A DNA stretch of 64,000 nt from Serratia liquefaciens (GTDB lineage Bacteria > Pseudomonadota > Gammaproteobacteria > Enterobacterales > Enterobacteriaceae): the NCBI GenBank assembly GCA_012719855.1, contig JAAXZN010000029.1, positions 98,526-162,525 of the forward strand, in the 5' to 3' direction. The notes below the pieces were generated by a model that made no database searches, was not told the origin of the DNA, and saw nothing but the letters and a program-made list of their open reading frames with translations. Made by a program: the position numbers and the translations under genes. This document shows, one piece after another, positions 23,829 through 41,059 of this stretch; within the stretch, counting starts at the first letter, position 1; each line of letters starts with the position of its first letter.

Positions 23829-24539
23829 ATGTCTCGTTTGGTTTTGATCTCGAATAAGCAGTGTGACGGCAAGGATCTGGCCTGCGCTACGCAGGCCCTA
23901 TCGCCTGACAGCCAGAGCGATGACGATCGCGGGTTGTGGCTGGGCTGGAACGGTGACGTACAGAACTTTGGCGAGGCGCCGCTGCGCCCGGTCAGTTACC
24001 AGCACCACAGCGGCTACGAACAGGTGACCTTTCCGCTGTCGACCGAGGAGTTTCACTTCCACTATCAGGGCTACTATCACGATGGATTGTGGCCAGTGTT
24101 CCATAACCACCCGGAAAAGGCACATTTCACGCCGGAGAACTACCGCGCTTATCGACAGCTCAACCGGCACTTCGCCGATATCGCCTGCGAGTATGTTTGC
24201 CCGAACGACATCATCTGTATTGATGATTACCAGCTGTTGCCCTGCGGCCAGGCGCTGAAAGAACAGGGGTTGCTGAACCCCTGCGCGTTCTTCTTCCATT
24301 TGCCGTTCCCGTCGACGGCGCTGCTCAGACAGATCCCCGAGCACCACGGCTTAATCGAATCGCTGTTTTTCTACGATCTGATCGGCTTTCAGACGCTCGA
24401 CGACCGCAACAACTTTCTCAGTTATCTGACCCATGAATACCCGGTCGAAATGCTGCCCGACGACCAGTTGCAGGTTAACGGACACATCTTCGCCACCGGC
24501 ATTTTCCCCGCCGGGATCAATGGCAGACAGGTTTATTGA
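23829..24539 (+). CDS. half-length GT20 (trehalose-6-phosphate synthase-like) protein
   Basis: A 236-residue protein matching only the N-terminal Rossmann half of OtsA (474 residues): MSRLVLISNK, GLWLGWNGD, DDYQLLPCGQALKEQG, FFFHLPFPST and YDLIGFQTLDDRNNFLSYL. The C-terminal half, which binds the nucleotide sugar, is absent, and no remnant of it follows before the terminator at 24548. The phosphate-binding arginine of OtsA's SNR motif is Lys here, and the early GG loop is lost. The aspartate and histidine of the acceptor pocket are kept. It is therefore unlikely to be a working trehalose-phosphate synthase. The close coupling to the ligase gene suggests a retained binding or regulatory role. 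Confidence 0.8.
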   Translation: MSRLVLISNKQCDGKDLACATQALSPDSQSDDDRGLWLGWNGDVQNFGEAPLRPVSYQHHSGYEQVTFPLSTEEFHFHYQGYYHDGLWPVFHNHPEKAHFTPENYRAYRQLNRHFADIACEYVCPNDIICIDDYQLLPCGQALKEQGLLNPCAFFFHLPFPSTALLRQIPEHHGLIESLFFYDLIGFQTLDDRNNFLSYLTHEYPVEMLPDDQLQVNGHIFATGIFPAGINGRQVY

Positions 24540-24578: not shown

Positions 24579-24767
24579 TTCGCTTCGATTTACTTTTACC
24601 GTATTTATCGCCATCGCAATAGGTTATTTTATTTTCTGAATATAGCGATTAAAAAATGAATATTCATCCTGTTACACATCAACAATAAAAACCGCATGCC
24701 ACCAATTGCTTTTTATTAGCAAAACACATTACCCTCTCCCTGCCATATTTAAACCGAGGAGGGCCCT

Positions 24768-24821
24768 ATGGGCGATGAAAGTTTTAGTTTTACGCTAATT
24801 CTATTGGGCGCCTTTCAGTAA
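24768..24821 (+). CDS. 17-residue leader peptide before the ABC permease gene
   Basis: ATG at 24768 is preceded by an excellent ribosome binding site (GAGGAGGGCCCT). The frame encodes MGDESFSFTLILLGAFQ and stops at 24821. A hairpin begins nine bases later. A similar peptide (28945-29007) precedes the second ATPase gene. Both are short, begin with Gly/Asp/Glu/Ser and end in a hydrophobic Leu-rich run. The placement between a terminator and a transporter gene, with about 180 bases of leader after it, suggests translation-dependent control of the downstream gene. No known leader family is recognised. Confidence 0.6.
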   Translation: MGDESFSFTLILLGAFQ

Positions 24822-24830
24822 TGCCACCCA

Positions 24831-24864
24831 GGTTGCATTCTGAAAGACACGGAATGCGGCAACC
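24831..24864 (+). promoter_or_regulatory. conserved hairpin after leader peptide 1
   Basis: GGTTGC-ATTC (24831-24840), loop TGAAAGACAC, then GGAAT-GCG-GCAACC form a long stem with one bulge. The stretch TTGCATTCTGAAAG is nearly repeated (TTGCATCCTGAAAG) in the hairpin after leader peptide 2 at 29016-29029. Further downstream both have a CCCTTC block. Confidence 0.6.
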
Positions 24865-25001
24865 GCTCCCCTTCTGACGGCCTTTCCCGCTCTGCCGGCC
24901 CGCCCATCGCCCCGCTGCGAAAACAACGTCTGTCTCAACCGCTGTAGCGGTATTTATCTGAGGTCGCCGGGAATATTCCCCCGAGCGCCGACGGATTTCT
25001 T

Positions 25002-26747
25002 ATGGGAAAATTAAGGTATTGCGTTATGCAAAATAACCGGGGTACATCTATTTTCAGAAAGTCTTATTTAAATGACTTTATCGTTATCGCCATCGGCGTT
25101 TTCTTCATTGCATTTTTTATTCGCGCCTGGGGCGACATGCACGGCGATTTCAATGAACAGAACGTCTCCGCCATTAATCTCGATGCCTGGAATCTGCTCT
25201 ATTATTCGCTCAGAACCAGCATGCGCTTTCTCCTCGGCATGGTCTGGTCGTTGCTGTTCTCTCTGGTGTTCGCCGTGCTGGCCGCGCGCTATGCGCCGCT
25301 GCGCCGGGTGATCCTGCCCTTCGTCAACTTTATGGAGTCGGTGCCGTTGGTGGGGTTCCTGACCTTCACCACCGTGTACTTTCTCAACCTCTACCCGCAC
25401 AGCGTGATGGGGCTGGAGTGCACCGCCATCTTCGCGGTGTTTACCGGCCAGGCCTGGAACATGATGCTGACGCTGTATCAGACGCTGCGCATCGTGCCCA
25501 AGGAGCTGGACGAAGCCGCGCGCAGCTTCAATTACAACCCGTGGCAACGCTTCTGGCGGCTGGAGTTCATCTATTCGGTGCCGGGCCTGCTGTGGAACGC
25601 CATGGTGTCGCAGTCCGCCGCCTGGTTCGCCCTGGTGGCCTCCGAAGCCATTCCGGTTGGCGATCGCTCGGTCGAATTACCCGGCGTCGGCTCCTATATC
25701 GCCGAAGCGCTGGCGCAGCAGAACGTAGCGGCGATCCTGTATGCGATCGTCGCGCTGGCCGCCAATATCGTGCTGCTCGATCAGCTGGTTTTCCGCCCGC
25801 TGGTGCGTTACACCGCCCGTTTCAAATACGAAGACGTCACCGCCAATCGGCCGTTCGGCAATCCGTGGTTCTACAACAGTCTGGCCTTCTCGCACATCGG
25901 CGCAGCTCTGGGCAGCACGCTGCGCGCGCTGGCTGACCTGTGGCTGTTCAAGCTGCCGCGGCTGTGGTACGCCCTCTGCCTGCACCGCCTGTTTCGCCTC
26001 GCCGCCAAAGGTAATTGGCTGTGGCGTAGCCTGTGGTATCTCGGCGTGGTGCTGGCCTGCGTCTGGTTCGGTTACCGGCTGTGGGAATACTTCCCCAAAC
26101 AGTACTTCGCCATGCTGCCGGAGTGGATGCTGCTCACTACCGCGCGCGTGGTCGCGGCTATGCTGCTCAGCGTGGCGATCTTCACGCCGCTGGGAGTCTG
26201 GATCGGCATGAATCCACGCCTGGTGAAGATCTTCCAGCCGATCATCCAGATCCTGGCGGCCATTCCGCCCAACATTTTCTACCCGCTGATCGCCGCCTTC
26301 ATCGCCATTTATCATCAGGATCTCGGCTGGTGGGCCATTCCGATGATCATGCTGGGTACCCAGTGGTACGTGTTGTTCAACGTGATCGCCGGCGTCTCCG
26401 CCATTCCGACGCAGATCACCGAGGTCAGCGAAACCTTCGGCCTGCGTCGCTTTCGCTGGTGGCGCTACTACATGCTGCCGGCGATTTTCCCCTACATCGT
26501 GACCGGCATCATCTCCGCCGCCGGCGGCGCCTGGAACAGCGCCATCGCCGCCGAGGTGATCCAGTGGGGCAGCACCACCCTCAGCGCCACAGGGCTGGGC
26601 GCCTTCATTTCCGTGGTGACCGACGCCGGCAAGAACCCGGAGTCAGCACTGGGCTGCGCAGCGATGTGCGCGCTGGTGGCATTGTGCATCATCTTCGTCT
26701 GGCAACCGCTGTATCGCATAGCGGAAACCAAATTCAAATATGACTGA
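25002..26747 (+). CDS. ABC transporter permease, duplicated (two fused BPD domains)
   Basis: A 581-residue inner-membrane protein made of two tandem binding-protein-dependent permease domains. The first has the EAA-type coupling loop ELDEAARSFNYNPWQRFWRLEF near residue 170, the second TEVSETFGLRRFRWWRYYMLPAIFP near residue 480. Such duplicated permeases belong to the NitT/TauT-like anion transport group (COG4986-like). One polypeptide can therefore replace a permease dimer. It is followed by an ATPase gene and a porin gene, but no periplasmic binding protein gene is found in the cluster. An ATG at 25026, preceded by AAGG, is an alternative start. Confidence 0.88.
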   Translation: MGKLRYCVMQNNRGTSIFRKSYLNDFIVIAIGVFFIAFFIRAWGDMHGDFNEQNVSAINLDAWNLLYYSLRTSMRFLLGMVWSLLFSLVFAVLAARYAPLRRVILPFVNFMESVPLVGFLTFTTVYFLNLYPHSVMGLECTAIFAVFTGQAWNMMLTLYQTLRIVPKELDEAARSFNYNPWQRFWRLEFIYSVPGLLWNAMVSQSAAWFALVASEAIPVGDRSVELPGVGSYIAEALAQQNVAAILYAIVALAANIVLLDQLVFRPLVRYTARFKYEDVTANRPFGNPWFYNSLAFSHIGAALGSTLRALADLWLFKLPRLWYALCLHRLFRLAAKGNWLWRSLWYLGVVLACVWFGYRLWEYFPKQYFAMLPEWMLLTTARVVAAMLLSVAIFTPLGVWIGMNPRLVKIFQPIIQILAAIPPNIFYPLIAAFIAIYHQDLGWWAIPMIMLGTQWYVLFNVIAGVSAIPTQITEVSETFGLRRFRWWRYYMLPAIFPYIVTGIISAAGGAWNSAIAAEVIQWGSTTLSATGLGAFISVVTDAGKNPESALGCAAMCALVALCIIFVWQPLYRIAETKFKYD

Positions 26748-26762
26748 TCAATGGGGAACAAC

Positions 26763-27554
26763 ATGGTGACTCAAGACGTGATTATCCGCGCCCGCCGGCT
26801 GAACAAGACGTTTATCGGCGAAAACAAACACCCCAAACCCGTGCTGCGCGACGTGTCGCTAGCCATACACGCCGGCGAGTTCGTCACCATTCTGGGGCAA
26901 TCCGGCTCGGGCAAGTCCACGCTGCTGCGCATGCTGGCGGGGCTGATCCCGCCGGACAGCGGCACGCTCACCCTGGCGAGCAAACCGGTCAACGGCCCGA
27001 GCGCCAACGTCGGCATGGTGTTTCAGTCCTACGCGCTTTACCCCTGGCTGACGGTGTACGACAACATCGCCTTCGGCCTGCTGGCTCAAAAGCTGCCGCC
27101 GCAGACGATCGCCGAGCGGCTGGGGGCGCTGCTACGCCTAGTGGGGCTGACCGGCTATGAGCACGCCTGGCCGCGCGAGCTTTCGGGCGGTATGCGCCAG
27201 CGCGTGGGTTTCGCCCGGGCGCTGGCGGTAGAGCCCGACGTCTTGCTGCTGGACGAGCCCTTCTCCGCCCTCGATATCTTTACCGCGCAAAAACTGCGGG
27301 GCGATCTGCTGGCGCTTTGGGGAGAAAACCACCTGCGTACGCGCGCCATGGTGATGGTGACGCACGACGTCGAAGAAGCGGTGCTGATGTCCGATCGGGT
27401 GCTGATCCTGGACGCCGCCGACAAACGAATCGACGACGAATTCAGCGTCAACATCCCTCGCGCGGCGCGCAACCGGGAAAGCCTGCGGCACCTCACCGAT
27501 CTGATCCGCAGCTGCCTGTACAGAAAAATCGCGCAATCGCAATCGGCCGGTTAA
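26763..27554 (+). CDS. ABC transporter ATP-binding protein (NitT/TauT type)
   Basis: A 263-residue ATPase with Walker A GQSGSGKST near residue 45, the Q-loop VFQSYALYPW, ABC signature ELSGGMRQRVGFARALAVEP, Walker B VLLLDEPFSALD and the H-loop VMVTHDVEEAV. It energises the duplicated permease encoded immediately upstream. The start at 26763 is chosen over an in-frame ATG at 26751 because GGGGA lies just before it. The gene for the porin follows 32 bases after the stop, so permease, ATPase and porin form one unit. Confidence 0.9.
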   Translation: MVTQDVIIRARRLNKTFIGENKHPKPVLRDVSLAIHAGEFVTILGQSGSGKSTLLRMLAGLIPPDSGTLTLASKPVNGPSANVGMVFQSYALYPWLTVYDNIAFGLLAQKLPPQTIAERLGALLRLVGLTGYEHAWPRELSGGMRQRVGFARALAVEPDVLLLDEPFSALDIFTAQKLRGDLLALWGENHLRTRAMVMVTHDVEEAVLMSDRVLILDAADKRIDDEFSVNIPRAARNRESLRHLTDLIRSCLYRKIAQSQSAG

Positions 27555-27586
27555 CGGCCCTGTTTTCATCCACTTGGGGAATTGAA

Positions 27587-28669
27587 ATGAACCATAAAAG
27601 CTTGCTGATGACGCTGGTCATCCTGCTGCCGGCTGCCGCCACCGGTGCGGAAATCGTCAATAAGGACGGTAATAAACTGGATCTGTACGGCCAACTGAAC
27701 GGCGTGCATTACTTCAGCAGCGACGCCAGCAATAACGGTGACCGCTCCTACACCCGCTTCGGCTTCAAAGGCGAGACGCAGATCGGCGACGAGCTGACGG
27801 GGTATGGGCAGTGGGAATATCAGGCGGGGCTTAATCAGGCGGAAAGCGCCGGGCCGGGCGACAGCTATACCCGTCTGGGCTTTGCCGGATTGACGTTCGG
27901 CCGCTGGGGTAGCCTGGATTACGGCCGCAACTACGGCCTGCTGTATGACGTGGCTGGCTGGACGGACGTGCTGCCTGAATTCGGCAACGACAGCTACGAA
28001 GCGGCCGACAACTTTATGACCGGTCGCGCCAACGGCCTGCTAACCTACCATAACCGCAGCCTGGGTGGACTGTTGGACGGTCTGGATCTCGGCCTGCAAT
28101 ATCAGGGGAAGAATCGGGGGGACGACGCCCTCCGGGCGAAGGATATTCAGACACAAAACGGCGATGGCTACGCCTTTTCCGCCACCTACGACACCGGCGT
28201 AGGGCTAGACTTTGGCGCCGCCTACGCCAACTCTGCGCGCACCCTGGCGCAACAGCGCTTCGGTCTGGCTGACGGCGATCGTGCCCGGGCCTGGACGCTG
28301 GGACTGAAATACGACCAAGACAACCTCTACCTGGCGGCAAGCTACGCGCGCACCGAGAACATGACCTACGTCGACGGCGATCGCTACGCCGGCTTCGCTC
28401 CCCGCGCGGACGCCGTCGAGGCGGTCGCGCAGTATCATTTCGATTCCGGCGTCACGCCCTCGCTGGCCTACCTGCAAACGCGCGGCCGTAACCTGCCCGG
28501 CATCGGCGGCGCCGATCTGGTCAAATACCTGGATCTGGCGCTGAATTACAGCTTCAACGCCAACATGTCGACCTACGTGGAGTACAAACTCAACCTGCTG
28601 CAACGGCAGAACGCCGTGGGTGCCAGCGCCGACGACATCGTCGAAACCGGCATCATGTATCAGTTCTGA
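27587..28669 (+). CDS. OmpC/OmpF/PhoE-type trimeric porin
   Basis: A 360-residue porin with signal peptide MNHKSLLMTLVILLPAAATGA. The classical mature start AEIVNKDGNKLDLYGQLNG follows, then the YTRFGFKGETQIGDELTGYGQWEYQ segment and the constriction-loop region FGRWGSLDYGRNYGLLYDVAGWTDVLPEFG, and the protein ends in GIMYQF. It is clearly a member of the OmpC family, but it is encoded within an ABC transporter operon, so it probably provides the outer-membrane route for the same solute. The start at 27587 follows GGGGAATTGAA. The long perfect palindrome after the gene ends the unit. Confidence 0.93.
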   Translation: MNHKSLLMTLVILLPAAATGAEIVNKDGNKLDLYGQLNGVHYFSSDASNNGDRSYTRFGFKGETQIGDELTGYGQWEYQAGLNQAESAGPGDSYTRLGFAGLTFGRWGSLDYGRNYGLLYDVAGWTDVLPEFGNDSYEAADNFMTGRANGLLTYHNRSLGGLLDGLDLGLQYQGKNRGDDALRAKDIQTQNGDGYAFSATYDTGVGLDFGAAYANSARTLAQQRFGLADGDRARAWTLGLKYDQDNLYLAASYARTENMTYVDGDRYAGFAPRADAVEAVAQYHFDSGVTPSLAYLQTRGRNLPGIGGADLVKYLDLALNYSFNANMSTYVEYKLNLLQRQNAVGASADDIVETGIMYQF

Positions 28670-28677
28670 TCCCCATT

Positions 28678-28713
28678 CCGGCCGGAGGGCGCCCTCCGGC
28701 CGGTTCATTATTT
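28678..28713 (+). terminator. strong hairpin terminator after the porin gene
   Basis: A 26-base perfect palindrome (28678-28703), CCGGCCGGAGGGC and its complement, is followed by TTCATTATTT. It separates the first ABC/porin unit from the second leader and ATPase unit. Confidence 0.8.
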
Positions 28714-28885
28714 GACTTGCCGCATACCATGTTATTCTCTCGTTTAATTCAGGTTTATATTTCCATAAAATGATGCCTATATTCATTCTTGTTATTTCTG
28801 TTGACACACCGTTTAATTAATAAAGAAAACCTTTCCCGCATTCATATTAAATTACATTTTGCCGACATAATTCGGCGCAACCACA

Positions 28886-28915
28886 TTGAATAACAGGCTA
28901 TACCACGCGTATTAT
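28886..28915 (+). promoter_or_regulatory. sigma-70 promoter candidate for the second leader/ATPase unit
   Basis: TTGAAT (28886-28891) and TATTAT (28910-28915) are separated by 18 bases. The predicted start near 28922 lies about 23 bases before the leader-peptide ATG. An additional TTGACA lies at 28801 without a good matching -10. Confidence 0.5.
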
Positions 28916-28944
28916 GGCCACACGAAAAATAACGGGAGAAAGAT

Positions 28945-29007
28945 ATGGAAGGCGACAGTTGGTTGTTTATTTTATTGTTGGAATCGCTGAGGTCACAGGA
29001 GCAATAG
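28945..29007 (+). CDS. 20-residue leader peptide before the second ATPase gene
   Basis: ATG at 28945 follows a GGGAG ribosome binding site. The frame encodes MEGDSWLFILLLESLRSQEQ and ends at 29007, ten bases before a stable hairpin. It parallels the peptide at 24768-24821 in length, acidic start, aromatic residue and Leu-rich centre, in distance to the hairpin, and in lying about 250 bases upstream of an ABC gene. No gene family is recognised. Confidence 0.6.
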   Translation: MEGDSWLFILLLESLRSQEQ

Positions 29008-29017
29008 TCATCCCATT

Positions 29018-29042
29018 GCATCCTGAAAGTGTCAGGATATGC
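29018..29042 (+). promoter_or_regulatory. conserved hairpin after leader peptide 2
   Basis: ATCCTGA-AAGTG-TCAGGAT is a perfect seven-pair stem flanked by a further GC/GC pair. Its left arm and loop (TTGCATCCTGAAAG) match the corresponding part of the hairpin at 24831-24864. Compensating changes on the right arm keep the base pairing. Confidence 0.6.
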
Positions 29043-29256
29043 GTTAGTTACCACATCCCTTCGCTTTACCCCTTCAGCGCATGGCCTCCGCGCATGCCAG
29101 TCCGGCGCGCCTGACAGGCTAATCACTCCAGCATATGCTTATTAACAGTCCGATAACGGTCAGGCTTATTTGCGCTCGCATTTATTTCACGCCGGCCCGA
29201 CGATAAATATCGGCCATTTTTCCATGCTCATATTTTTAATTGAGTGGAGAAACATC

Positions 29257-30036
29257 ATGATGGTAAAAAAAACCACGCTGCTAACAGTCAATAACGTCAG
29301 CAAAAGCGTTCAGCCTACCGGAAAAGAAAAACGCCTGGTGCTGAATGAAATCAACTTGCGCCTCTACGACAACGAGGTCGTCAGCATTTTGGGGCAGTCC
29401 GGCTCAGGCAAATCCACCCTGCTGCGCATTATTTCCGGCCTGATCGCGCCGGATCTGGGTACCGTGATGCTGGGGGATAAAAAAGTCTCGGGGCCAAATC
29501 CGCAGATCAACATGGTGTTCCAGACCTTCGCCATTTTCCCGTGGCTTAACGTCTACCAGAATATCGCCTTCGGGCTGCAGGCGCAGGATCTGCCGCCGCA
29601 GGTAGTCGAAGCCCAGACGCTGAAAATGCTCGATCTGGTCGGGCTCGCCCCCTACCGCGATGCCTACCCGCGCGAGCTTTCCGGCGGCATGCGCCAGCGA
29701 GTCGGCTTTGCGCGCGCGCTGGCGGTAGAACCGATGCTGCTGTTGCTGGACGAGCCCTTTTCCGCGCTGGACGTCTATACCGGCGAACACCTGCGCAGCG
29801 ACCTGCTGCGTATCTGGAGCACTCGCCAGATCAAAACGCGCTCCATCGTACTGGTTACCCACAGCGTAGAGGAGGCGGTGATGATGTCTGATCGCATCTT
29901 CCTGCTGGGCGCAGGTACCCTCGACGGCTGCTATCACATCGCGCAGCGCCGCGAGACGCGCACCCGCGAGGGAATGCAGCCGCTGACGGACAAAATCAGC
30001 GAGACACTCAGCCGGCAGATCGCCGCCGCGCACTGA
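29257..30036 (+). CDS. second ABC transporter ATP-binding protein (NitT/TauT type)
   Basis: A 259-residue ATPase with Walker A GQSGSGKST, Q-loop VFQTFAIFPW, signature ELSGGMRQRVGFARALAVEP, Walker B LLLLDEPFSALD and H-loop VLVTHSVEEAV. It is a close paralogue of the ATPase at 26763. It has no permease of its own nearby, so it probably serves the same duplicated permease, perhaps as the second half of a heterodimer. Start at 29257 follows GGAGAAACATC. The MgtC-like gene begins 112 bases downstream in the same direction. Confidence 0.9.
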   Translation: MMVKKTTLLTVNNVSKSVQPTGKEKRLVLNEINLRLYDNEVVSILGQSGSGKSTLLRIISGLIAPDLGTVMLGDKKVSGPNPQINMVFQTFAIFPWLNVYQNIAFGLQAQDLPPQVVEAQTLKMLDLVGLAPYRDAYPRELSGGMRQRVGFARALAVEPMLLLLDEPFSALDVYTGEHLRSDLLRIWSTRQIKTRSIVLVTHSVEEAVMMSDRIFLLGAGTLDGCYHIAQRRETRTREGMQPLTDKISETLSRQIAAAH

Positions 30037-30148: not shown

Positions 30149-30841
30149 ATGCATTTCATTCATACACTGCTGACGCTGCTGACCGCGTCCGTCCTGGGCG
30201 CCGCCATCGGCTACGAAAGACAGTTCCGCCAGCGCACCGCCGGGCTGCGCACCAACACGCTGGTGGCCACCAGCGCAGCGATCTTCGTCCACCTGGCCAT
30301 GACCATCGACGGCAGCGACGGCGCGGTGCGCGTCATCTCCTACGTGGTCTCCGGCGTCGGCTTTCTCGGCGCCGGAGCCATCATGAAGGAAGGGATGAAC
30401 ATCCGCGGTCTGAACACCGCCGCTACGCTCTGGGGTTCCGCGGCGGTCGGGGCCTGCGCCGGCTGCGGCCTGTACGGCGATGCGCTGGCCGCCACGCTGT
30501 TCGTGCTCGCCGCCAATACCCTGTTGCGTCCTCTGGTCAATATGGTCAACAAACAACCCTTCAATGACGTTAACGGCGAATCCACCTACCAGATTTGCGT
30601 GATCGCCTTCGAGCATGAGCAGCGTGAAGCGCTGGCTAAATTCAAACAGGTGCTGCAAGGCGAAAACTGCTTTATCTCGCATCTGGATATCGAACCCTTT
30701 GGCGACGACGACGTGGAGATCACCGCCACGCTGATGCCGGCTTCCGTCACCACGCCGGTGCTCGACCAGACCATCAATAAACTGCTGAACGGCAGCATGA
30801 TGAAACAAGCCTATTACAGCCGCATCGCTGGCTCCGGCTAA
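30149..30841 (+). CDS. MgtC-family inner-membrane protein
   Basis: A 230-residue protein with four to five transmembrane segments in the N-terminal 140 residues and a soluble C-terminal domain of about 85 residues. Family signatures are ASVLGAAIGYERQFRQRTAGLRTNTLVA, SGVGFLGAGAIMKEGMNIRGLNTAATLW and the acidic/cysteine region ACAGCGLYG. MgtC proteins act in magnesium limitation, intramacrophage survival and, in Salmonella, inhibition of the F1Fo ATPase. Here the gene is placed in an ABC transporter cluster rather than with mgtB. The ribosome binding site is weak, which may mean low translation or coupling. Confidence 0.88.
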   Translation: MHFIHTLLTLLTASVLGAAIGYERQFRQRTAGLRTNTLVATSAAIFVHLAMTIDGSDGAVRVISYVVSGVGFLGAGAIMKEGMNIRGLNTAATLWGSAAVGACAGCGLYGDALAATLFVLAANTLLRPLVNMVNKQPFNDVNGESTYQICVIAFEHEQREALAKFKQVLQGENCFISHLDIEPFGDDDVEITATLMPASVTTPVLDQTINKLLNGSMMKQAYYSRIAGSG

Positions 30842-30868: not shown

Positions 30869-31753
30869 ATGAAAACCATGCCGAAGCTGGCTCATCTGAC
30901 GATGTTCAAAGATATCGTCCACTGCGGAAGCTTGCACGAGGCCGCGAAAAAACTGGCCATCTCGCAACCGACGCTCAGCCGAGTGCTCAAGGAGCTGGAA
31001 ATGTCCATAGGCGCACGGCTGCTGGAGCGCAGCAACCGCGGCGTGCGCCTGACGGCGGTGGGCGAGCTGTTTTACCGGCGGATAGACGCCGCCACCAATC
31101 AGTTGTTCAGCGTGTTTGACGAACTACGCGGCATGAGCGCTGACGGTGAGAAGCGTCTGCGGGTGGGGATGAGCGTCGATCCGCTGCTGTGCTATCTGCC
31201 GCAGGTGCTCGAAGGCTTCAACCGCCGCTACCCGCATACCCGGGTGACGGTGGTGGAAGACGGCCCGGAAGGCCTGCTCGCCCGGCTGCGAAACTGCGAG
31301 CTGGATTTGGCAGTCAGCAGCCTGAACGGCGCGACGGGCGGCGCCGATCTGGCCATGCAGGCGCTGAAAAGCGAGCGCTTCTCGCTCTATCAGGGGGGCG
31401 ACCTTACCGCCGCCGGGCAGCCGCCGGCCGAGGCCAAATGGGTGGTGCCGCGCTCCTGCTCGGTGGGGCACGCCGCCATCCGCGAGATCGCCGAGAGTTA
31501 CACGCCGCACGGCCAGATAGTCGAGACCGACTCCTTTCTGGCGACCTGGTGCCTGGTCAGGCAGCAGGGTTATATCGCGCTGCTGAGCGATCGGGTTGTC
31601 GCGCACTATGCGCCGCAACTGCACCTGCAGAAAATCCCGACGCAGGGGATCGACATCAGCGCGCGCTTTTACGTCTTTACCCGCCATGAACCGGCTACGC
31701 CGCCGCTCAGCGCCGCGTTTATCCACCTGCTGCAAACCCTGCAGACGGCCTGA
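30869..31753 (+). CDS. LysR-family transcriptional regulator
   Basis: A 294-residue LysR regulator with an N-terminal winged helix (LTMFKDIVHCGSLHEAAKKLAISQPTLSRVLKELEMSIGARL) and an effector domain from about residue 95. It follows the MgtC gene by 27 bases in the same direction, so it is probably co-transcribed and may control the cluster from 22417 onward. Its ligand is unknown. It is a typical CbpB/GalR-like LysR by architecture, without a distinguishing feature I can name. Confidence 0.87.
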   Translation: MKTMPKLAHLTMFKDIVHCGSLHEAAKKLAISQPTLSRVLKELEMSIGARLLERSNRGVRLTAVGELFYRRIDAATNQLFSVFDELRGMSADGEKRLRVGMSVDPLLCYLPQVLEGFNRRYPHTRVTVVEDGPEGLLARLRNCELDLAVSSLNGATGGADLAMQALKSERFSLYQGGDLTAAGQPPAEAKWVVPRSCSVGHAAIREIAESYTPHGQIVETDSFLATWCLVRQQGYIALLSDRVVAHYAPQLHLQKIPTQGIDISARFYVFTRHEPATPPLSAAFIHLLQTLQTA

Positions 31754-40831: not shown

Positions 40832-41059
40832 GGCTGCGGCACATTCCGCAGCCGGAGTTAGCGTTCCGAACATACACTGAGCAGCATTATGTATATAATG
40901 CTGGGGCCTCAAATATCCAAAATTATGGTGGCCCAGGCGGAGGCTTCGCAAGAAGCGCCGGTTTCCTTAGTGTCCGGTGACGCTAACTCCGTTTGGGCTA
41001 CCACCATGGGTTTAGCGTCTCACGTGGTAGCAGCGCACCACACTAAGGAGAACAGCCAC
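40832..41059 (+). ncRNA. structured leader resembling the ash/icd leader of P4-type satellites
   Basis: About 230 bases with nested perfect stems. These are GGCTGCGG-CACATT-CCGCAGCC (40832-40853); CGGAGTTAGCGT (40853-40864) pairing with ACGCTAACTCCG (40980-40991); AGCATTAT-GTAT-ATAATGCT (40883-40902); GCTTC-GCAA-GAAGC with a GNRA loop (40943-40956); and GCTACCAC (40997) with GTGGTAGC (41024). Its open frame contains MVAQAEASQEAPVS and SVWATTM, phrases typical of translated leaders of ash/icd-like genes in P4-type elements. In P4 this kind of leader yields the CI immunity RNA. Function here is inferred. Confidence 0.6.

Follow-up and report, generated by a model that had tools for sequence, protein, structure and literature searches.

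The leader open reading frames (ORFs) mgtM, mgtP and mgtQ have been described in Salmonella (PMC3641672, PMC8092293, PMC6908480); according to these reports, loss of the mgtM start codon locks its leader in the ON state, the ON state of mgtQ corresponds to stem 2:3, and the mgtM peptide varies in sequence between species (PMC3641672). For mgtL and corL, the leaders of mgtA and corA, PMC11282234 and PMC11552253 describe translation as inversely tied to downstream expression and propose the involvement of Rho. Early acidic residues, adjacent or one apart, cause ribosome stalling or dissociation, and MgtL works in this way, as stated in PMC11282234. Here we describe two leader modules, each consisting of a short ORF followed by a hairpin, in a stretch of 64,000 nucleotides of Serratia liquefaciens DNA (GCA_012719855.1, contig JAAXZN010000029.1, positions 98,526-162,525 of the forward strand), hereafter the window. 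Leader 1 is followed by gene set 1, encoding a two-domain ABC permease, an ATPase and a porin, and leader 2 by gene set 2, encoding an ATPase, an MgtC-family protein and a LysR regulator. That the modules are attenuators of some kind we regard as likely; that each is a translation-gated attenuator of the mgtM/mgtL/mgtQ type with an Mg2+-type acidic mechanism has, in our estimate, a probability of about 0.5.

Leader ORFs and competing stems

An earlier note on this DNA had reported two short ORFs of 17 and 20 codons with good ribosome binding sites, each followed by a hairpin, and both ORFs and both hairpins were recovered (Table 1). Modules of this kind were compared in detail in ten of the 11 genomes that carry them (all but G329). 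Both ORFs open with paired acidic codons (MGDE, MDDD, M(D/E)GD), and leader 2 begins with MDGD in the nine compared genomes other than the window's. An acidic pair, adjacent or one apart, lies within residues 2-6 in 6/6 leader types; of 245 proteins predicted at the loci, 11 have one. The leader peptides of Serratia sp. PL17 (MDDDIFNVSLTLLSIFQ and MDGDGSLFNGLLNLLKDQEQ, each up to its stop) have the same lengths as those of the window, and the distances from stop to hairpin arm, 11 and 8 nt, are also the same. Between PL17 and the window there are 15 substitutions in each ORF. Nine codons are changed in each, out of 18 in leader 1 and 21 in leader 2 with the stop included, every one of them nonsynonymously, and for this reason the peptide interior is, judging from the codons, free to vary. 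The two have the acidic start in common, as well as the ORF length, a number of Leu positions and the final codons, which form region 1 of the stems described below. The Leu codons CTA-x-CTA-TTG at 24795-24806 are kept in 10/10 copy-1 ORFs, with a middle codon that varies.

The last codons and the stop of leader ORF 1 constitute the 5' arm of an alternative hairpin, A1. In each module, the left arm of the hairpin noticed earlier (region 2) is complementary both to the last codons and stop of the ORF (region 1) and to the right arm (region 3), and therefore pairings 1:2 (hairpins A1 and A2) and 2:3 (B1 and B2) are mutually exclusive. The ORF-end pairing involves CUUUCAG(U)AAUGC and GCAUUCUGAAAG in copy 1, and CAGGAGCAAU and AUUGC(A)UCCUG in copy 2. 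Isolated 37-nt folds of the B hairpins gave -14.3 kcal/mol (z -3.8) in copy 1 and -10.1 (z -2.3) in copy 2. In 100-nt folds including the ORF end, A was chosen in 18 of 20 cases (two copies in ten genomes), and B in copy 1 of PL17 and copy 2 of L039. Dinucleotide shuffling of five variants (copies 1 and 2 of the window, copies 1 and 2 of PL17, and L078) never reproduced A and B together at the observed strength and count of shared bases (0/1000 for each variant). L078, a third variant from a metagenome-assembled genome, keeps an ORF and B with a shorter A, and its switch is weaker. An ORF end that overlaps region 1 of exclusive stems, the feature of an attenuator, is present in both copies, in PL17 and, less strongly, in L078; this anatomy gives good support to the translation-controlled attenuation considered in the earlier note.

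The same note had also claimed covariation between the two copies and remarked on their common left arm and loop. Over ten rows, 97% of the 101 cells preserve B pairing, and the number of paired cells, the number of doubly changed cells and the covariation score were each reached by 11 of 500 shuffles. A true double compensation was found at one B pair only (UA to CG), a count not above that of the shuffles (369/500), so that the covariation is modest. The common arm and loop are indeed there, in part because both are also engaged in pairing with the end of the ORF, which had been overlooked. TTGCATYCTGAAAG occurs exactly twice in the genome, both times in the modules. The only genomic match to it with a single mismatch sits within a 256-aa open frame, and a recurrent match to TCGCATYCTGAAAG, checked in the window's genome and in four relatives, falls each time within an open frame of 256-264 aa; these candidates were rejected.

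The permease is found at ≥87% identity in 11 of 30 Serratia genomes, including the window's own and a second one of its species. With a covariance model (R1), built from ten rows that represent the leaders of five of the 11 genomes and L078, both modules were recovered in all 11 (22 strong matches, those of the five row-giving genomes by construction) and no strong match in the remaining 19. Extended to 295 genomes of the order under stricter filters, the search, which the earlier note had called for, returned only the window's own two strong matches. Weak R1 matches numbered ten in the genus (20-22 bits) and six in the order (23-29 bits). Fourteen of these 16 were dropped as they lie inside long open frames (eight in one same 554-aa frame); the other two, L168 (intergenic) and L170 (with only short antisense frames), were dropped as well, no leader-like ORF being visible by eye.

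Comparison with described leaders and with other permease loci

The earlier statement that no described family fits has to be abandoned, since the modules share their layout with the mgtM module of this genus's own mgtC leader and their acidic start with the mgtQ and MgtL upstream ORFs (uORFs). The canonical mgtC of Serratia is preceded by a TTG-started ORF (MDSFSCSDINKAG, then stop) whose end pairs with the left arm of the next hairpin; a Pro-Pro ORF was also seen by eye upstream of this gene. An mgtM-like ORF was present in 29/29 mgtC loci fetched (frame-shifted in L198, shorter in L202), with an M-D start that is true by construction because the search required Asp as the second codon. Complementarity between the ORF-end element and the left arm was seen in 28 of the 29 loci, and in L202 the competing segment lies just past the stop. 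Twelve mgtM-type modules were folded (11 mgtC loci and L070), and each folds both ways. In L070, an mgtM-like TTG ORF and hairpin, the likeness being read from the alignment, stand before a Yokenella permease; this locus is one of the 11 rows of the canonical mgtM model (R2), which it therefore matches by construction.

The leaders have in common with mgtM the short ORF, an M-D start (on the mgtM side by construction), the pairing of the ORF end with the left arm in competition with the hairpin, a pyrimidine stretch after it and an MgtC-type gene downstream; leader 2 precedes the ATPase and mgtC genes, which is an mgtM-type position, and leader 1 precedes the permease. They differ from it in their ATG start, the absence of an adenine run, the sequence of the arms, the presence of two copies, one of which stands before a permease, and the lack of any visible mgtP-like second ORF. 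We therefore suggest that the modules work like mgtM, with no claim to membership of its family.

Of 26 Serratia loci with an intact mgtC, 24 have an mgtQ, located between mgtC and mgtB, that starts with MDGD or MDDD (the other two have MNGD and MDDG; the ORF detected in a 27th locus, whose mgtC is broken, does not conform). These four residues are those of leader 2 (MDGD, 9/10) and of PL17 leader 1 (MDDD). The acidic start (mostly MDGDP or MDDDP in Serratia mgtQ; MDGD, MDDD and MGDE in the leaders) and the choice between stems 1:2 and 2:3 are thus shared, whereas the leaders lack Pro at position 5 and stand at the head of a gene set rather than between genes. In mgtQ the downstream ribosome binding site is masked directly by stem 3:4; this is not so in the leaders, because the next gene starts 204 and 249 nt after the stop of leaders 1 and 2, respectively. 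As regards mgtL and corL, the literature points to acidic or Pro codons, translation inverse to downstream expression and Rho in the proposed outcome as likenesses, whereas the leaders have no proline run and no Rfam match to an mgtA-type leader. Neither module gave an Rfam gathering match at all, the only hit being an unrelated snoRNA (E 2.5) on the opposite strand, and searches of an open-access library, judged by titles and the openings of abstracts, brought up no report of such leaders or of Mg2+ control of this transporter family.

A genome scan for permease relatives yielded 211 confirmed stretches, the best 80 of which were retained, and 19 loci with at least 46% identity (two Serratia and 17 others, the near-duplicate Serratia loci L067 and L069 being left out) were scanned upstream. 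Short ATG ORFs with a ribosome binding site and a Pro-Pro or early acidic pair were detected automatically at 15 of the 19 loci; among 98 control genes preceded by 150 nt or more, nine were positive, two of these being leader 2. Several positive loci are closely related (three Rahnella; Yokenella, Cedecea and Arsenophonus; Izhakiella and one Erwinia), which leaves fewer than 15 independent cases. Acidic uORFs (MDGD, MDDD, MDSD) were found in Serratia and L078, DEPPS uORFs in Yokenella, Cedecea, Arsenophonus, Izhakiella, Rahnella and Erwinia, LQPP uORFs in Vibrio and Photobacterium (two each), and one HIPPS ORF of 44 aa in L081. The automated search missed L079, L082, L085 and L128: by eye, the last three have MPPS, EPPS and IPPS ORFs, respectively, without the required start signal, and no such uORF was found upstream of the Burkholderia permease (L079). 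The LQPP leader ORFs of Vibrio/Photobacterium stand in tandem before the permease in L083 and L084 (MYKLYTPLQPPCRH/MYRYFPLQPPPIAQIDR; MKTLSTPLQPPCRY/MVRYLSLQPPPIKKD). Reading by eye also showed three Neisseriaceae uORFs to be rich in Leu.

Among the permease loci, the ORF-end switch is confined to Serratia and L078. In the DEPPS leaders (eight Enterobacterales rows) the folded hairpin has the first or second base of the stop codon as its own first base, and it beats most shuffles in 7/8 rows (that of L077 was equalled by 123 of 300); these leaders show no Serratia-type competition at the ORF end, and no stop-anchored hairpin was found in Vibrio, Photobacterium or L085. Between the DEPPS leader and the permease, the eight Enterobacterales relatives contain an ORF of 67-77 aa with D(S/T/A)L(L/I)P or a close variant at its end (for example L070 7605-7826, L077 652-885 and L074 7643-7846); the three products tested had no Pfam match. 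In L202, from another genus, a short ORF after mgtC begins with M(TM)NEPPSGDRR, close to the DEPPSG permease leaders.

A proposed switch and its alternatives

Acidic codons, ribosome drop-off and alternative stems have precedents in PMC8092293, PMC11282234 and PMC3641672. Along these lines, the early-acidic leader ORF would be translated to its stop only with ample Mg2+; the ribosome at the stop would cover region 1, hairpin 2:3 would form and termination would be favoured, probably by Rho in the C-rich stretch. Rho rather than intrinsic termination is proposed because only a weak, chance-level terminator match was found after leader 1 (five pairs as stem 3:4, 24938-24951, against 0.5 such matches expected by shuffling), and leader 2 is followed by none. 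At low Mg2+, the paired acidic codons at positions 2-5 would cause ribosome drop-off, 1:2 would form first and block 2:3, and transcription would continue from leader 1 into the permease genes and from leader 2 into the ATPase and mgtC genes. The Mg2+ signal, the direction and the termination step are what we infer; the direction was assumed from the ON state of mgtM that has lost its start codon.

Several points weigh against this proposal. The direction is uncertain and may be reversed, given that 2:3 is the ON state of mgtQ, and the Mg2+ response of both gene sets is a prediction. A frame kept open across so few changed codons is in itself weak proof of translation. At a looser threshold, A/B pairing was also obtained at 29 of 363 control frame ends (long open frames in all six frames, genes and non-genes, of the window and eight loci), and the A pairing of L078 alone was reached by 248 of 1000 shuffles. 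R2 scored 2.0 bits on each leader module, which is chance level, and R1 gave no match to mgtM modules at E up to 1; as the models do not cross-recognise, common descent with mgtM is unproven. Beyond Serratia and L078 the permease uORFs are mostly of the Pro-Pro and not of the acidic-only type, without the ORF-end switch, and a PhoP-like box is absent before leader 1 (≥3 mismatches). Not every acidic pair destabilises ribosomes, as noted in PMC11282234. With regard to termination, the C-G excess among 170-nt stretches is in the top 1% for copy 1 of the window and borderline for copy 2 (5.7%), and is ordinary in PL17 and L078 (23-30%), that is, not conserved. The downstream CCCTTC block of the earlier note is present in both window copies and absent from copy 1 of PL17. 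In none of 11 sequences did stem 3:4 exceed its shuffles in stability. With an ordinary stem 3:4 and a C-rich stretch that is not conserved, the involvement of Rho is a guess.

The main rival is classical amino-acid attenuation, in which scarce Leu-tRNA would stall the ribosome at the Leu codons and the stall position would select the stem. The leucine attenuator leuL has rare CUA Leu codons before competing stems. Leader copy 1 resembles it in this respect (of the 468 Leu codons of ten window genes, 13 are CTA), and it is the conservation of CTA-x-CTA-TTG in copy 1 that leaves this explanation as the main rival. The Leu-rich run of leader 2, the Leu positions common to the window and PL17 peptides and the Leu-rich uORFs of Neisseriaceae are also in its favour. 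However, copy 2 has TTG/TTA/CTG instead of CTA, the uORFs of L078 and the DEPPS type are not Leu-rich, the AT-rich leader DNA may itself account for the Leu and Phe codons, and, unlike leuL, the modules have neither a good intrinsic terminator nor biosynthetic genes, no leucine gene being present among the ten neighbouring genes scanned; taken together, we consider leucine attenuation rather unlikely. The anatomy, the genomic company and the variability of the mgtM peptide between species (PMC3641672) would also suit a true mgtM homologue that senses ATP, or UTP given the U-rich and not A-rich ORF, via transcription-translation coupling. Such homology is nevertheless improbable in view of the ATG instead of TTG start, the absence of the A-run near the ORF end and the lack of cross-matching between the models.

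Hydrophobic middle segments and good ribosome binding sites could indicate small functional, perhaps membrane, peptides whose message is merely stabilised by the hairpins, but the residues vary freely and mainly the ends are held, which are the acidic or RNA-pairing parts; this makes a peptide function quite improbable. Nothing observed calls for a ligand-binding RNA, which is unlikely, and neither the ligand-sensing peptide suggested in the earlier note nor a riboswitch found support in peptides with a freely varying interior and in modules with no meaningful Rfam match. A riboswitch with a passenger ORF, in particular, is hardly to be expected: the hairpins are stable and conserved, but the two pairings explain the conserved left arm and the alignments contain no longer conserved core.

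The magnesium-type attenuator would tie a poorly known ABC transporter to leader switches of that type and provide a testable guess as to when it is expressed. More tentatively, and with doubt prevailing, the two-domain-permease ABC family of gamma- and betaproteobacteria could belong to the Mg2+ stress regulon, with destabilising or stalling uORFs designed separately in its lineages and the twin switch of Serratia coordinating the transporter with an MgtC paralogue. Acidic or Pro-Pro uORFs that act on the ribosome may be used more widely than in mgt and cor genes. The twin copies, with different sequences and the same competing pairs, constitute a small natural experiment in switch evolution.

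Locus, promoter-like sites and neighbouring features

Table 1. Features of the two leader modules and of the adjacent genes (window coordinates).
Feature	Position	Strand	Details or basis
Shine-Dalgarno, leader ORF 1	24756..24763	+	GAGGAGGG in 9/10 compared genomes; AAGGGAGGG in PL17
Leader ORF 1, 17 codons	24768..24821	+	MGDESFSFTLILLGAFQ, then stop; 17 codons in 10/10 genomes compared
Alternative hairpin A1 (1:2)	24812..24846	+	24812-24818 with 24840-24846, 24820-24824 with 24835-24839, bulge U24819; kept in PL17
Hairpin B1 (2:3)	24832..24860	+	24832-24842 with 24850-24860; excludes A1
C-rich, G-poor stretch, possible Rho loading region	24868..24940	+	C-G excess; CCCCTTC at 24868-24874
ABC permease, two permease domains	25026..26747	+	Pfam BPD_transp_1, two stretches; start = M9 of 25002 frame
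ABC ATPase 1	26751..27554	+	profile matches, tree
Porin, OmpC/PhoE family	27587..28669	+	profile matches
Intrinsic-terminator-like hairpin between gene set 1 and leader 2	28678..28703	+	11 pairs
PhoP-box-like direct repeat CGTTTA-N5-GGTTTA	28741..28757	+	1 mismatch, in 10/10 genomes
Second PhoP-box-like repeat	28799..28815	+	2 mismatches; motif scan
Promoter-like TTGAAT-N18-TATTAT ahead of leader 2	28886..28915	+	motif scan
Leader ORF 2, 20 codons	28945..29007	+	MEGDSWLFILLLESLRSQEQ, then stop; SD (Shine-Dalgarno) GGGAG; 20 codons in 10/10 genomes compared
Alternative hairpin A2 (1:2)	28996..29025	+	28996-29000 with 29021-29025, 29001-29005 with 29015-29019, bulge A29020
Hairpin B2 (2:3)	29018..29042	+	29018-29025 with 29033-29042; excludes A2
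Possible hairpin C2 (3:4)	29026..29067	+	29026-29031 with 29062-29067, 29035-29038 with 29055-29058; overlaps CCCTTC
ABC ATPase 2	29257..30036	+	profile matches, tree
MgtC-family protein, paralogue of canonical MgtC	30149..30841	+	Pfam MgtC, 119.9 bits
LysR-type regulator	30869..31753	+	profile match

The terminator-like hairpin after the porin (0.4 such sites expected in shuffles of the region) and the promoter-like site before leader 2 make it likely that leader 2 heads its own transcript. This site is one of five promoter-like sites observed in the stretch before leader 2, with 1.8 expected, and its elements (TTGAAY and TATTAT) are kept in all five aligned genomes. For PhoP boxes we took the consensus to be (T/G)GTTTA-N5-(T/G)GTTTA. 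In PL17, both half-sites of the repeat at 28741-28757 are intact and four of its five spacer bases are changed. One mismatch was reached by 7 of 2320 overlapping 220-nt background segments, some of which hold this repeat itself; in AT-rich background, 5 of 375 segments had one mismatch and 27 of 375 two or fewer. As a positive control, 28 of 29 canonical mgtC leaders had sites with two or fewer. The repeat lies about 150 nt upstream of TATTAT, which is far for a directly activated promoter. PhoP activation of gene set 2 as well is a prediction.

The permease start was placed at M9 of its frame, relatives beginning at or near the same Met. The MgtC-family protein of gene set 2 reached 165 bits against NCBIfam PRK15385 (threshold 255), and the other MgtC match of the same genome adjoins mgtB-like DNA on contig C64. 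Tandem duplication as the source of the twin modules is unproven, ATPases 1 and 2 being 52% identical and not sisters in the tree. In the PL17 cluster (L068, 10549-11225), 675 nt alone part the two ATPases, with no counterpart of the porin.

Two blocks are nearly unchanged in PL17, TGAATwTTCATCCTGTTACA upstream of leader 1 (24657-24676) and TATTAAATTACATTTTG upstream of leader 2 (28845-28861); they are possible regulator sites, perhaps for the LysR protein of gene set 2. Between a glutamine-synthetase-like gene and leader 1, an OtsA-like protein of 236 aa (23829-24539, + strand) spans only positions 42-250 of the 473-position family profile; it is perhaps a real short protein, because relatives with 78-89% identity occur in S. 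bockelmannii and PL17. C4 antisense RNAs are typical of P1/P4-type phages, and one of them (RF01695, 76 bits) at 40921-41008 on the + strand is the sole Rfam gathering match of the window.

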